64,000 bases of DNA from Kitasatospora sp. NBC_00315 (GTDB taxonomy: Bacteria; Actinomycetota; Actinomycetes; Streptomycetales; Streptomycetaceae): positions 5,642,001 to 5,706,000 of the forward strand of contig NZ_CP108025.1 in the NCBI RefSeq assembly GCF_041435095.1, read 5' to 3'. The notes beneath the pieces were generated by a model. It was not told the DNA's origin, made no database searches, and saw nothing but the letters and a program-made list of their open reading frames with translations. Position 1 is the first letter of the stretch. Each line of letters begins with the position of its first letter. Shown piece after piece: positions 52,010 through 58,561 of this stretch. A program made the position numbers and the translations under genes.

Positions 52010-53392
<1,383 letters not shown>

Positions 53393-53396
53393 CCGC

Positions 53397-53450
53397 ACGC
53401 CCCGAAGGCCCCCGCCCGCCGTCACGGCGGGCGGGGGCCTTCGCCGTGGC
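53397..53450. repeat. First copy of 54-bp terminator repeat
   Basis: Identical over 54 bases to 55183-55236. It contains an 18-bp perfect hairpin, 53403-53420 with 53426-53443, loop GTCAC, ending the glyS transcript. Confidence 0.95.
53403..53443 (+). terminator. Terminator after glyS
   Basis: Eighteen-pair perfect stem starting CGAAGGCCCCC, GC-rich, 5-base loop, 10 bases after the glyS stop. Confidence 0.9.
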
Positions 53451-53472
53451 CGGTCCACCGCCGGAAAACGCG

Positions 53473-53502
53473 TTGTCCCGCCAGGGGGTGCTCCGACATG
53501 AT
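53473..53502 (+). promoter_or_regulatory. Candidate promoter of the secreted repeat-protein gene
   Basis: TTGTCC (53473-53478) and CATGAT (53497-53502) are 18 bases apart, with GCTCCG/CGGAGC arms flanking the -10. The transcript would start near 53509, giving a leader of about 45 bases with GGGGGAG before the ATG. Confidence 0.4.
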
Positions 53503-53552
53503 CCGGAGCGGCGAGATCGATCGCACAGCTGTTTCCATCAAGGGGGAGTCAC

Positions 53553-55151
53553 ATGAGTCGTACCGCAACCGGGTTGCCGGGCCTCGCCGCGGCAGCCGCG
53601 TTCGCGCTGGCCGCCGGACTGCTCGCCGCACCGGCCGCCGCCGCGGCGGACGGTGCTCCGGTGAGCGGCCCGAGGACGCTGCCGAGCCCCGGCTTCGCCG
53701 CCACCGGAGTGCACAGCGGCTGCGGCGACGCGGGCGAGCCCGGATGGATCAACACCGCGGCTCCGACGCTCACGGTCACCTCGACCGTCCCGGACGTCCG
53801 CTTCACCGTCCGCGACGACGCCACCTCCGCCCACACCAAGGTGTTCGACGCCACCGCGCAGACCTCCGCCGGCAGCGCCCAGGTCGCCGTGACCGGGCTG
53901 ACGGACGGCCACGCGTACAGCTGGCGCGCCAAGGGCGTGCAGGCGGACGGCCCGACCGACGCCTGCCGCTTCCGGGTCGACGCCACGGCCCCCGCGCAGC
54001 CCACCGTGGAGTCCACCGACTTCCCGTCCGCCGGCACTCCGGCGAAGTACGCGGGGCAGAGCGGCCTGTTCACGTTCCGGGCGACGGACGCGGCCTCGGG
54101 TGTGGCGTGCTACCACTACACCCTCGGCCTGTACCCCGACCGGGGGAACGACTGCACGGCCCGGGGCAGCGTCCTGGCCGGTCCCGACGGACTCGTGACG
54201 GTGCCGATCCGGCCGACCTCCTGGGGCACCAACACCCTCACCCTCACCGCTGTCGACAACGCGGGCAACGTGACCTGGCCGACGAGCTACACGTTCTACG
54301 CGCCGTCGAACCCGAGCCCGCCGGCCGTCCCCGGGGACGTCGACGGAGACGGAGTCCCGGACATCCCGCTGCCCGACTCGGCCGGGAACCTCCAGATCAT
54401 CAGCGCGGCCGCGTCCAGCGCCCGGCCGACCTCCACCGTCGCGGCCGGCTACGCGCCGAACCGGCAGAGCTGGGCGGGCTACCAGCTCGCCCACCGGGGC
54501 TGGGGCCAGTGGCACGCACCGATGGACGACCTGATCGCGTTCGCGCCCGGGACCTACGCTCCCTCGTTCTACCGGAACAGCGACTACGGGACCTTCGCCG
54601 CCGGCAGCATCAGGCTGACGCGCCCGGCCGACGACCCCTTTGCCGAGGAGCCGACCTTCCCGGCCGACTTCCCGGCCGACTGGTCGAAGACCGACCAGCT
54701 GGTCGCCCTCGGCGCGCTGGGCCAGGACCAGCAGTCCTCGCTGCTGACGGTCGAGGCCGGTGACCTCTGGCTGCTCACCGACCCGTCGAACTACTCCTTC
54801 TCGACGGTGCGCAAGCTCGGCGCGGGCTCCTGGACCGGCTACGAGCTGATCGCTCCCGGCAAGGCCGCCGACGGCTCGCTGGCCCTGTGGTCCCGGGAGA
54901 AGGCGTCCGGCACCCTGCGCAGCTACCCCATCGCCCACAACGCGGACGGCAGCTGGGACTTCGCCGCCCTGGCCGATCCGGCGTCCGGCACCGTGATCGG
55001 GAACTTCCCGCTCGCCGACTACCCGGTTCTGGGCAGCTCCGGTGACGGCAACGGCGACGGAAGGCCGGATCTGTACGCCGTCACCGCCACCCGTCACCTG
55101 CTCACCTTCGACGGCGTCAGCACGCCCAGGGATCTCGGTCCGCTGGCCTGA
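53553..55151 (+). CDS. Secreted FG-GAP/VCBS-like repeat protein
   Basis: A 532-residue exported protein. The first 31 residues form a signal peptide (RTATGLPGLAAAAAFALAAGLLAAPAAAAA split by positively charged start and Ala-rich cleavage zone). An N-terminal fibronectin/Ig-like segment carries several Cys (HSGCGDAGEPG, DACRFRVDA, GVACYHYTL). The C-terminal half contains FG-GAP-like repeats with calcium-loop motifs GDVDGDGVPDI and GDGNGDGRPDLY. Likely surface or matrix adhesin or glycan-binding; function unknown. It lies between two identical 54-bp terminator copies, suggesting recent insertion beside glyS. Confidence 0.85.
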   Translation: MSRTATGLPGLAAAAAFALAAGLLAAPAAAAADGAPVSGPRTLPSPGFAATGVHSGCGDAGEPGWINTAAPTLTVTSTVPDVRFTVRDDATSAHTKVFDATAQTSAGSAQVAVTGLTDGHAYSWRAKGVQADGPTDACRFRVDATAPAQPTVESTDFPSAGTPAKYAGQSGLFTFRATDAASGVACYHYTLGLYPDRGNDCTARGSVLAGPDGLVTVPIRPTSWGTNTLTLTAVDNAGNVTWPTSYTFYAPSNPSPPAVPGDVDGDGVPDIPLPDSAGNLQIISAAASSARPTSTVAAGYAPNRQSWAGYQLAHRGWGQWHAPMDDLIAFAPGTYAPSFYRNSDYGTFAAGSIRLTRPADDPFAEEPTFPADFPADWSKTDQLVALGALGQDQQSSLLTVEAGDLWLLTDPSNYSFSTVRKLGAGSWTGYELIAPGKAADGSLALWSREKASGTLRSYPIAHNADGSWDFAALADPASGTVIGNFPLADYPVLGSSGDGNGDGRPDLYAVTATRHLLTFDGVSTPRDLGPLA

Positions 55152-55182
55152 CGTCAGTACCGTCGGCGCCATCAGGACCTCG

Positions 55183-55236
55183 ACGCCCCGAAGGCCCCCG
55201 CCCGCCGTCACGGCGGGCGGGGGCCTTCGCCGTGGC
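55183..55236. repeat. Second copy of 54-bp terminator repeat
   Basis: Identical to 53397-53450 (54 of 54 bases). Its hairpin (55189-55229) ends the secreted-protein gene and can also terminate the convergent gene 55246. Confidence 0.95.
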
Positions 55237-55245
55237 GCGCCGGCG

Positions 55246-56598
55246 TCAGCGTCGGCCGCGGCGGGCCCGGGTGGGCTCGGCGGGGACGGTCGGCAGGCCG
55301 GCCGCGCGCAGGGCGGCCACGGCGTCCCGGCGGCGGCCCTCCTCGGCCTCGCCGAGGGCCGCCAGCAGTGCGCCGTACAGGGCCGGGGTGGTGGCGAGGG
55401 CCGCGCCGACCTGGGCCAGGTCGGCGGGCCGGCGCAGCGTCACCAGTTCGCGCAGCAGGGCGACCGCCAGTGGTCCGTCCAGGGCCGTGACCAGGGCGGA
55501 CGCCTCCGGGACCGACCGGGCGGCGGCCTGGTGCAGCAGGGTGCGGGTGTCGGCCGGACGACCGGCCGCGTGCAGGTGGTCGGCCAGCGCCGCCAGGTCG
55601 GCGGGCGGCGCCGACCCCCACTCCCAGAGCAGGGTCTGCCCGTCGGCGCCCTGGCCGCAGCGCTCCAGCGCGGCCAGCAGCTCGGGCAGGGCGGCCGCCG
55701 GATAGCCCCACAGGGCGTGGAACAGCTCCGCGGCCTCGCCGACCAGAGCGGCCCGCCGCAGCTCGGCGAGGGTGGCGGCCGCGTGGTCGGGCGAGCCGTG
55801 GGCGACGGCGCGGGCGAGGTAGGCCGCGGCGCCCGCCGGGCCACCGGAGCGCAGCAGGCCCGCCAGCCGGGCGACGTCCGCCGGGGCGAGGGTGACGGCG
55901 CCCTGGGCGACCAGGGCGGCCGACTCGTGCGCGGAGCCGCGTCCGTGCAGTGCGGTGATCCGTTCGGCGAGGGCGTTGAGTTCGGCGGCGGTGCGCGGGC
56001 GCGGGGCGGGTGGCCGCGCGCGCTCCGTCGTCGCCGTCCGGTCCGGTTGGCCGGCCGGCGGAGGGGTGTCCGGGCCGGTGCCGGTGGCGCCTCGGGCGCC
56101 GCCGAACCGCGCGCCCGTGACGTGCGGCGTGCTGGGCACCGGCGGAGCGGGCGCCTGGACGGGCGGCGCGGCGGGCTCCTGCTCGTACACGCCGCCGAAG
56201 CGGGCCCCGGTCGGGCGCTTGCGGGTGGGCCCGGCGGCGGGCGCGGGCGCGGGGGCGGCCGCGGGCGCCGGCGAGGGCGCGGGGGATTGGTGCAGGCGCA
56301 GCTCGTCCTCGACGGCCAGCAGGCGTTCGCTCAGCTCCAGGCAGCGTGCTCCGAGCCCCTCCCGCAGGTTCCGCGCCTGGTCGAGCCGCCGCAGCAGCTC
56401 CGGGTCCGGCTGCCCCTGCGGCTGCGCGTACCGGTGGTCGGTGCCCGGCAGGCCCGCGTCCCGTACCGCGTCGGCCAGCCGCCGTTCGCGCTGGGTTGCG
56501 TACTGCCGTGCGCGCAGCAGTTCGTCGAGCTCCGCCCGCAGCGCCTGGGCGTCCTGCTCCACCGATGGGCGGAGGTTGTTCTCCTGGTGCACCGTCAC
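55246..56598 (-). CDS. Pro/Ala-rich coiled-coil hypothetical protein
   Basis: A 450-residue cytoplasmic protein starting MTVHQENNLRPSVEQDAQALRAEL. Residues 10-95 form a coiled coil (LDELLRARQYATQRERRLADAVRD, LDQARNLREGLGARCLELSERLLAVEDEL). A Pro/Ala linker with two TGARFGG repeats follows, and the C-terminal half is a helical solenoid (LNALAERITALHGRG, VALAGLLRSGGPAGAAAYLARAVAHGSP) with repeated amphipathic helices. No catalytic motif. The GTG at 56596-56598 (complement) is chosen after GGAGAGG; another GTG precedes it directly. It lies downstream of a polytopic membrane protein gene, 116 bases away. Confidence 0.75.
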   Translation of the reverse strand: MTVHQENNLRPSVEQDAQALRAELDELLRARQYATQRERRLADAVRDAGLPGTDHRYAQPQGQPDPELLRRLDQARNLREGLGARCLELSERLLAVEDELRLHQSPAPSPAPAAAPAPAPAAGPTRKRPTGARFGGVYEQEPAAPPVQAPAPPVPSTPHVTGARFGGARGATGTGPDTPPPAGQPDRTATTERARPPAPRPRTAAELNALAERITALHGRGSAHESAALVAQGAVTLAPADVARLAGLLRSGGPAGAAAYLARAVAHGSPDHAAATLAELRRAALVGEAAELFHALWGYPAAALPELLAALERCGQGADGQTLLWEWGSAPPADLAALADHLHAAGRPADTRTLLHQAAARSVPEASALVTALDGPLAVALLRELVTLRRPADLAQVGAALATTPALYGALLAALGEAEEGRRRDAVAALRAAGLPTVPAEPTRARRGRR

Positions 56599-56714
56599 CA
56601 CGTCGTCCGACCTCTCCACCGCGCCCCGGGCCCTACTGCTCCACCCCGACCGCCCCACTCCGACTGCCCCACCCTGACTGCCGGTCATCCTCGCGGGGCG
56701 ATACGGCGGTCGTG

Positions 56715-57935
56715 TTACGGCGGTGAGTCGGCTTGTTTTCGGAGCGCGTCGGCGCCCGCGTCGGCGAGTGCGCAGACGCCGATCACCGTCAGCAGGAAGG
56801 CTGTTGCGGCGCGGAGCAGGCCGGCCTCGTAGTACGCGTCGGTGGTCCACCGGGCGGCCGCCCAGCCGGCTGCCGCCGCGGCCGGGAGGGCCGCGGCGAG
56901 CCCGATCCAGGCTCCTGCGCCGGCCCGTTCCCCCCGGGCGCCCGCCGCCGCCCGCAGCACGACCAGCAGGCCGGCGCCCGCGGCGAGTGCGGGGCCGGCG
57001 AAGGAGCCGCCGTATCGGATCGCCAGCGCCGGGACGAGGAACAGGACCAGGGCGCGGCCCAGCCCGGCGGCCACCGTGGCCACGGCCGGCCCGGCGGGCG
57101 CCCCGGCCCGGCCGTACGAGGCGGCGTACCGGGCGCCCGCCAGTACCGCCAGCGCCAGGGCCGCGTCCGGCAGCCGTCCGCCGAGGCGGGAGAGGTTGTA
57201 GAGCAGCGCGGTGTCGTACACGACCAGCACCAGCGAGCCCAGCGCCCACAGCGAGACGCCGAACAGCAGCAGACCCCTGGCCGAGACCGGCCGCAGCGGC
57301 CCGCGTTCGCGCCCTGCCAGCACCCGGATCAGCACCGGGGTGACCAGGGCGGAGAGCACCCGCAGGGCAATGTCGTCCACCGTGTACGGGTTGCGCAGAT
57401 CCCACTCGACCAGGCAGAACGCCGCCGTGTAGGAGGCCGCGGCGAGCGGCACCAGCGCGGAGCGCGCCACCCGCCGGTACAGCCCGGCGTCCAGCCAGCG
57501 CAGCACGGTGGCGAACGCCAGCAGCACGAAGGGGAGTTCCAGGAACGCCTGGACGCGCAGCACCGAGGGCGCCAGCAGTTCGGGCACGGGCATGTGCGCG
57601 GCGAGCCGTCGGACGAGGCCGCCGTCGGCCGTGGCGAACCAGCCGGGCGGCAGGTAGCGGGCGACGAAGGAGGTGTCCCCGCCGTGCACCCGCAGGACGT
57701 ACACCGCGAACAGCAGCTGGTTGAGGTAGATCAGCGCCACCACCGCCGCCAGCGCCGCCCCCGGGCCGAAGACCCTTCGGTCGGTGGCGGGCCCGGGTGT
57801 CGCCCGCGGGGCGGACGCCCCCGCGGCGGCGGGGCGTTCGGGCGTCGGCCCGCGCAGGACGCGCGGCGCCGCGACCACCGCCGCGACGGCCGACACCACC
57901 ACGGTGACGTTCAGGCCCGGGGCCAGGAGCGACAT
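56715..57935 (-). CDS. Polytopic membrane protein, unknown
   Basis: A 406-residue protein with about ten hydrophobic helices, starting MSLLAPGLNVTVVVSAVAAVV at ATG 57933-57935 (complement) after GAGGGGG. Soluble outer loops include HGGDTSFVARYLPPGWFATADGGLVRRL between the second and third helices; conserved-looking charged sites include VEWDLRNPYTVDD. No transporter or enzyme motif recognised. The start overlaps nothing but lies 11 bases from the NADAR stop, suggesting one operon NADAR, membrane protein, coiled-coil protein. Confidence 0.75.
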   Translation of the reverse strand: MSLLAPGLNVTVVVSAVAAVVAAPRVLRGPTPERPAAAGASAPRATPGPATDRRVFGPGAALAAVVALIYLNQLLFAVYVLRVHGGDTSFVARYLPPGWFATADGGLVRRLAAHMPVPELLAPSVLRVQAFLELPFVLLAFATVLRWLDAGLYRRVARSALVPLAAASYTAAFCLVEWDLRNPYTVDDIALRVLSALVTPVLIRVLAGRERGPLRPVSARGLLLFGVSLWALGSLVLVVYDTALLYNLSRLGGRLPDAALALAVLAGARYAASYGRAGAPAGPAVATVAAGLGRALVLFLVPALAIRYGGSFAGPALAAGAGLLVVLRAAAGARGERAGAGAWIGLAAALPAAAAAGWAAARWTTDAYYEAGLLRAATAFLLTVIGVCALADAGADALRKQADSPP

Positions 57936-57946
57936 CCGGGCCCCCC

Positions 57947-58561
57947 TCAGCCACTCAGCCGGGTACGGGCCTCCATCAGCGCGAAGCCGAGCAGGTTCAG
58001 CCCCCGCCACTGCGCCGGCCGGACGGCGTTCTCGTGGTCGGCCGCGAGCCCGATGCCCCAGATCCGGTCCATCGGGCTGGCCTCCACCAGCACCCGCTGC
58101 GAGGTACCCAGCAGATACGTCCGCAGCGCCTCGTCCTGCCCGAACTTGGCGACGCTGCCCGCCACCACCAGTTCGAACCGACCGGCCACCCAGCGCTCCT
58201 CGTCGAAGCCCGCCACCTGCCGCCCGAGCGCCTTGGCCTCGGCGGGGGTGCGGGCCCGGAGGATGCGCGGGACGATCCGCTCGTCGCCGAACATCCGGGC
58301 CTTGCCCGCCATCATCCAGTGCTCGGCCGTCGGGTACTCGACCCCGTCGACCACGAAGCGCGAGGGCCACCACTGGCTCAGCGCCCCCGGGCCGACCTGC
58401 CCGTCGCGCTGCGGCCGGTGGCCCCAGAACAGCAGGTACTTCGGGTGCCCGCCGGCTGCCACCAGGGCGGTGAGTTCCTCCCGGGTACGGGCTTCAGCGG
58501 GCTTGCCGGGAGTGGTGGCCGTGCTGGGCGTGGTGGGAGTGGTGGGACGGGCGGTCGTCAT
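57947..58561 (-). CDS. NADAR family protein (YbiA-like)
   Basis: A 204-residue protein with the NADAR fold: YLLFWGHRPQ, LSQWWPSRFVVDGVEYPTAEHWMMAGKARMFGD, LGRQVAGFDEERWVAGRFELVVAGSVAKFGQ and DRIWGIGLAADH are the family blocks. Family members hydrolyse N-glycosidic bonds, including in riboflavin intermediates (YbiA) and ADP-ribosyl-guanine in nucleic acids. The first 25 residues are Thr/Pro-rich. ATG 58559-58561 (complement) follows GAGGA. Downstream genes encode membrane and coiled-coil proteins of unknown role. Confidence 0.88.
   Translation of the reverse strand: MTTARPTTPTTPSTATTPGKPAEARTREELTALVAAGGHPKYLLFWGHRPQRDGQVGPGALSQWWPSRFVVDGVEYPTAEHWMMAGKARMFGDERIVPRILRARTPAEAKALGRQVAGFDEERWVAGRFELVVAGSVAKFGQDEALRTYLLGTSQRVLVEASPMDRIWGIGLAADHENAVRPAQWRGLNLLGFALMEARTRLSG

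Follow-up and report, generated by a model that had tools for sequence, protein, structure and literature searches.

Bacterial insertion sequences are known to target REP palindromes (PMC1525189), and the uptake-sequence terminators of the Neisseriae are hairpin terminators tied to DNA acquisition (PMC2397512). In Streptomyces, breaks introduced with I-SceI were repaired by Ku-dependent end joining with a fill-in of 1–4 nt and took up inserts that measured between 30 bp and 18.8 kb (PMC5869714); ku-like genes were reported across 38 Streptomyces genomes (PMC5124664). In E. coli in the absence of SbcCD and RecA, an interrupted palindrome gave rise to hairpin-capped ends and inverted duplications, which the authors attribute to degradation followed by the formation of hairpins rather than to cleavage of a cruciform (PMC3315005). 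Among the papers found in searches for terminators as insertion sites, none was seen to describe a terminator present in duplicate on the two sides of an acquired gene.

The locus described here is located in a window of 64,000 nt from the genome of Kitasatospora sp. NBC_00315 and contains a gene framed by two identical hairpins, T1 and T2, next to glyS (Table 1). As in the case of the REP-targeting insertion sequences, an intergenic palindrome appears to have served as the insertion site; unlike them, the insert carries neither a transposase nor terminal inverted repeats and is accompanied by a 54-bp duplication (PMC1525189). The Neisserial terminators offer a likeness in that a hairpin is associated with acquired DNA, whereas Neisserial uptake motifs occur every ~1.5 kb on average (PMC2397512) and the 54-mer was found here in two copies.

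The essential gene glyS was present in 70/70 genus genomes, and the name given to it in the preliminary description agrees with its Pfam matches. The insert has a length of 1732 nt and is filled by one gene, before the start of which a ribosome-binding-like AAGGGGGAG was noticed by eye. For the convergent gene, no Pfam family was found up to E 0.1. No transposase was detected among the Pfam and NCBIfam matches of the one gene of the insert, and a comparison of the 60-nt insert ends for terminal inverted repeats gave a score of 15, which was reached by 375 of 500 random pairs (random mean 17.5). A duplication of 54 bp is longer than usual target duplications, and the arrangement resembles an extended target-site duplication from which both the transposase and the terminal repeats are missing.

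Table 1. Features of the glyS locus (positions in the window)
Feature	Position	Strand	Basis or remark
glyS, glycyl-tRNA synthetase, conserved left neighbour	52010..53392	+	Pfam HGTP_anticodon and tRNA-synt_2b
T1, first 54-bp hairpin copy	53397..53450	.	hairpin 53403–53443; position agrees with the post-glyS hairpin of relatives
Leader of the inserted gene	53451..53552	+	sequence
Inserted gene, 532 aa	53553..55151	+	probable FN3/Ig-like part ~35–255; probable beta-propeller ~266–532
3' spacer of the inserted gene, short	55152..55182	+	no homology assigned
T2, second 54-bp hairpin copy	55183..55236	.	separates the inserted gene from the convergent gene; right flank aligns with relatives
Convergent gene, open frame; true start may lie further in	55246..57954	-	located immediately past the hairpin in the closest relatives

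In the window sequence, T1 and T2 are identical in all 54 bases with a spacing of 1786 nt, which confirms the earlier observation that the two copies match over 54 bases; no such pair appeared, even at ≤3 mismatches, when the window was shuffled by dinucleotides (n = 100). The 54-mer folds into a single stable, G+C-rich hairpin with pairing that spans bases 2–52 (−50.4 kcal/mol, z −6.7), and each copy consists of perfect 20-nt arms plus short flanks. The T1 hairpin begins 10 nt past the glyS stop codon. No site with a T tract after the stem was found in 53000–55600, the tail being CCGTGGC, and the label "terminator" for the 54-mer therefore rests on its shape and place. Both suggest that the 54-bp hairpins may act as terminators, and the earlier wording, which calls them terminators outright, is to be corrected in this respect.

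A search for the 41-base core with ≤3 mismatches revealed two places in the 8.33-Mb genome, namely T1 and T2. The spaced 54-mer (≤3 mismatches) was found in 1/297 sampled family genomes, which was the source of the window itself, and in none of the remaining 296. A search of the GTDB contigs, a collection from which the source's own record may be absent, gave no exact match to the hairpin core. Direct repeats (exact, at least 28 nt long and at least 200 nt apart) were then compared with hairpins of score at least 20. In the window plus 40 pieces of the same genome (864 kb, ~10% of the genome, 58 strong hairpins), 51 exact direct repeats were found, and the T1/T2 pair overlaps a strong hairpin while the other 50 do not; in 787 kb of relatives (78 strong hairpins), 0/3 direct repeats overlap a hairpin. 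The locus is thus a single case, with no second twin hairpin in either data set. The idea that the element marks other cargo genes is contradicted by the genome count of two, both at this locus, and by its absence from the 296 other family genomes; the 54-mer was rejected as a genome-wide cargo mark, no second hairpin-bearing repeat and no occurrence in the family or GTDB collections having been found.

In order to evaluate the state of this site in relatives, as the preliminary description had proposed, the region downstream of glyS was compared in all 69 other genus genomes of the sample (one genome per species). For 63/69 loci the sequence past glyS extends over 6.9 kb or more, and the other six end at contig ends (L072, L105, L108, L109, L131 and L132). 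The gene was found directly after glyS at none of the 69 congeneric loci. A hairpin is located ≤300 nt from the glyS stop in 65/69 loci, four loci have a second, different hairpin within this distance (L066, L072, L083 and L098), and no hairpin at the threshold was found in four (L075, L077, L125 and L132, the last with 18 nt only).

The three nearest genomes, G025, G033 and G080, encode GlyS proteins 98.5–98.7% identical to that of the window and show the order glyS, one intergenic hairpin and a homologue of the convergent gene of the window, the aligned end of which lies 161–195 nt past the glyS stop. A second hairpin call in G080 (L066, 165–239) falls where this homologue aligns. The window flanks joined at T (the shared 54-mer) gave alignment scores of 271, 247.5 and 253 with G025, G033 and G080, and the left flank plus insert gave 139, 142 and 123. 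The insert with T2 and the right flank gave 264, 240.5 and 249, barely under the joined-flank scores, so the alignment does not show which hairpin copy is the original one. The single hairpin of these relatives, against two identical ones in the window, differs in sequence from T, and hence there is no true pre-insertion allele among the relatives sampled. All this agrees with the earlier proposal of an insertion of the gene next to glyS, and such an event at this place in this lineage is considered highly probable. The associated claim of insertion with duplication of the terminator needs to be widened: the hairpin was duplicated during insertion, or the copies were made identical later.

Identical G+C-rich hairpins are difficult for assembly, and an artefact of assembly or contamination could be imagined for this reason. 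We regard it as extremely unlikely, since the assembly has 4 contigs and the locus is in the interior of the main one (8.24 Mb), the GC content of the inserted gene (0.72–0.75) is in line with the region, and both outer flanks match relatives.

The product of the inserted gene had been described as VCBS-like. No VCBS model was present among the Pfam matches up to E 0.1, which were sub-threshold FG-GAP and Ig-like matches only (FG-GAP_3 scored 25.5 bits, the cut-off being 26.9); the one NCBIfam match, of OmpL47 type, was also below threshold. The AlphaFold2 model of the 532-aa protein (mean pLDDT 87.4, residues 1–32 below 50) is almost entirely beta. Residues 266–532, cut from the whole-protein model, aligned with tachylectin-2 (1tl2; Z 13.5, rmsd 3.1, 203 aligned), and residues ~35–255 aligned with fibronectin-type modules (Z ~9–11). 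A second-look structural alignment gave Z 11.1 for the UmbA4 chain (9oee) and Z 9.5 for the lectin PLL5; the top ranks of Foldseek itself were mainly Ig- and FN3-type chains with a low TM-score. The C-terminal part shares its fold with tachylectin-2 and with UmbA4, a lectin of the umbrella particles (PMC13274773). The PDB sequence profile search matched neither 1tl2 nor 9oee; its best match was a titin stretch at E 0.0064, and no clear relative emerged. UmbA4 is described with a trypsin-like domain (PMC13274773), whereas the Pfam matches of the inserted protein name none. According to the model, the protein probably consists of two FN3-like domains followed by a propeller of the tachylectin kind. 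The look of its N-terminus suggests that it is probably secreted, and a secreted sugar-binding role is likely. The window genome also contains a 1482-aa open frame (G000:C1:2598520-2600157) in which most of the module (query 34–524) recurs at 37% identity.

With family copies counted at E 1e-70 or better, 36 stand-alone copies were found in the genus; a match in G013 (1450-aa frame, 41%) was excluded because of its different architecture. Besides the window copy, 33/35 copies adjoin sdhB in convergent orientation. This placement was taken from sequence for 31 copies (with sdhB itself by coordinates for L153 and L155) and from coordinates only for G067 and G073. A strong hairpin lies ≤400 nt 3' of the stop in 26/31 sdhB-side copies, and no family copy except that of the window has a strong hairpin upstream of the gene. 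In 7/31 copies sdhB is located ~1.5–1.7 kb further along; in the three of these that were translated (L162, L167 and L173), the lectin-like gene is separated from sdhB by an extra frame of ~445–470 aa that looks by eye like a membrane protein. In G024, G064 and G026, without the lectin-like gene, a small membrane-protein gene lies 1.7–2.7 kb from sdhB, leaving room for a frame of ~445–470 aa.

The sdhB site of the window genome contains no copy of the gene. The sdhB-side hairpin of this genome (L161, C1, ~5059493–5060966), adjacent to the position of the lectin-like gene in relatives, contains an IS30-family element of ~1.5 kb; three genome copies of the element were found by its end, of which L161 and, by eye, L243 lie inside inverted repeats. 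No copy was found at the sdhB side of the 20 relatives fetched (18 of the 34 genomes without a family match, plus G008 and G013), L230 having ~1.7 kb of downstream sequence only. A stretch resembling the leader of G033 remains at the sdhB side of G025 and G080, which suggests that a resident copy was lost there.

Two displaced copies, the second copy of G019 and that of G008, are located outside the sdhB site. They are 87.8% identical to each other from ~104 nt before the gene to ~32 nt after it, and as this identity spans the leader, the gene travelled together with its leader. No flanking direct repeat of at least 10 nt was found within 350 nt of either copy. Upstream of the G008 copy, a 25-aa stretch matches at 48% the small membrane-protein gene found near sdhB, and the sdhB site of G008 is empty; these two displaced copies (L169 and L170) form a separate pair in the tree.

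The presence and absence of the family among species, mostly adjoining a hairpin, might point to a modular mobile cassette for which the hairpin is a recognised site of repeated gene gain and loss, as the preliminary description had suggested; loss through recombination between the 54-bp repeats is also conceivable. Such a cassette is very improbable, given that the element has its two genome copies at the glyS locus, that the insert is this gene alone and its ends score below the random mean for inverted repeats, and that the displaced copies lack flanking repeats. The part of the earlier proposal on modular, terminator-linked gain and loss is consequently not supported, while the gene might be deleted by recombination between T1 and T2.

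A phylogenetic tree was built from 34 of the 36 stand-alone copies (G067 and G073 were left out). The window copy pairs with the sdhB-side copy of G075 (95/92) inside a nine-row set (95/93), and its end branch is long (0.47). By contrast with this position, the glyS DNA of G033 is 97.3% identical to that of the window, and its GlyS is among the most similar. When the window copy was forced together with the sdhB-side copy of G033, a pair picked after the tree had been seen, the grouping was rejected in the AU test (66.6 log units, p 1.4e-6), which makes acquisition likelier than a relocation of the resident copy. A simple shift of the sdhB-side resident to glyS is accordingly disfavoured, with allelic replacement in G033 remaining as an alternative. 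To judge from the tree, the window copy was most likely acquired from another lineage of the genus, and we infer both the donor and the direction of this transfer.

The gene could also have come from a donor, such as an unsampled strain, a plasmid or a circle, that carried it beside T: a single crossover at T yields exactly T-gene-T, and members of the gene family have apparently passed between lineages. We consider this unlikely. The exact core is missing from the GTDB contigs and the 54-mer from the 296 other sampled family genomes, all 23 plasmid records of relatives of the protein are <60% identical, and no relative was found in the phage collection. A protein search of the GTDB contigs gave no relative, against many among the genus genomes. 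For several of the similar proteins, encoded on plasmids of Streptomyces, the annotation reads ricin-type beta-trefoil lectin domain protein.

As to the hairpin itself, the T 54-mer was compared with the hairpins of both sites using local alignment scores. The glyS hairpins of G033, G025 and G080 scored 57, 50 and 34, and the sdhB-side hairpins of the gene's own clade scored 30 (L163), 26 (L164) and 29 (L165), with group means of ~30. The best glyS score, 59, belongs to a more distant species (L098), and the sdhB-side hairpins of L015 (56, reverse strand) and L008 (55) are level with the glyS hairpin of G033. Derivation of T from the glyS hairpin by duplication of the target is therefore probable and not proven, in view of the high scores of L098, L015 and L008 and the low score of G080.

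These scores also bear on a plain insertion of the gene with its own terminator, after which gene conversion overwrote one hairpin with the other. The strong 3' hairpins of the usual-site copies fit such a course, and homology confined to the hairpin would likewise put the boundary at the hairpin. On the other hand, the three same-clade sdhB-side hairpins, at 26–30, score about the mean against T and offer little for recombination to use, and the identity of T1 and T2 extends 6–7 nt outside the perfect arms on both sides. We judge later conversion to be rather unlikely. An insertion at the hairpin, with target-like duplication of it and with a gene from another lineage, is the explanation we favour, with moderate confidence.

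According to this explanation, a 1.7-kb segment comprising the leader and the probably secreted lectin-like gene would have entered precisely at the hairpin that separates glyS from the convergent gene (X), and the hairpin would have been duplicated like a target-site duplication, from glyS-T-X to glyS-T-gene-T-X. We infer tentatively, at a level below even confidence, that the palindrome was extruded or broken, so that each side of the break was left with a hairpin or a long overhang, that opening and fill-in rebuilt the full hairpin at both ends, and that Ku-type end joining caught the incoming fragment. Each of the three genes would have retained a terminator-like hairpin, and the insertion would have been tolerated for this reason. 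The duplicated unit corresponds approximately to the foldable hairpin (bases 2–52 of 54), and a Ku protein is encoded in the genome (PF02735, E 8.9e-47). The proposed steps resemble break healing in Streptomyces in the fill-in at the ends and in the insertion at the healed break (PMC5869714). They differ in that the reported breaks were made by I-SceI and took up endogenous inserts, whereas here a palindromic hairpin, a 54-bp duplication, a whole gene and a presumed break are involved. The reported fill-in of 1–4 nt is far below 54 nt (PMC5869714) and counts against the proposed mechanism, as do the E. coli palindromes, which led to inverted duplications with cruciform cleavage disfavoured (PMC3315005).

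Thus, the locus represents one unusual insertion, and on this one case recurrent modular gain and loss are not supported. It is a single-gene gain in which the empty site in relatives, the usual locus of the family and the duplicated hairpin are all visible. The gene itself, previously labelled VCBS-like, can be relabelled as a probable beta-propeller lectin, the distribution of which is patchy and out of step with the species. A wider proposal, namely that palindromic terminators are self-duplicating landing sites at which a captured gene is insulated on both sides on arrival because each end of a broken hairpin retains the hairpin of one strand and is recopied into a complete terminator, appears doubtful; if true, it would mean transposase-free gene gain with the termination of every neighbour kept, potentially reversible by recombination between the copies. 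If palindromic terminators do duplicate around captured DNA, this would help to explain how transposase-less single genes enter tight convergent pairs in actinobacteria, and such entry would leave a neighbour like glyS unharmed.
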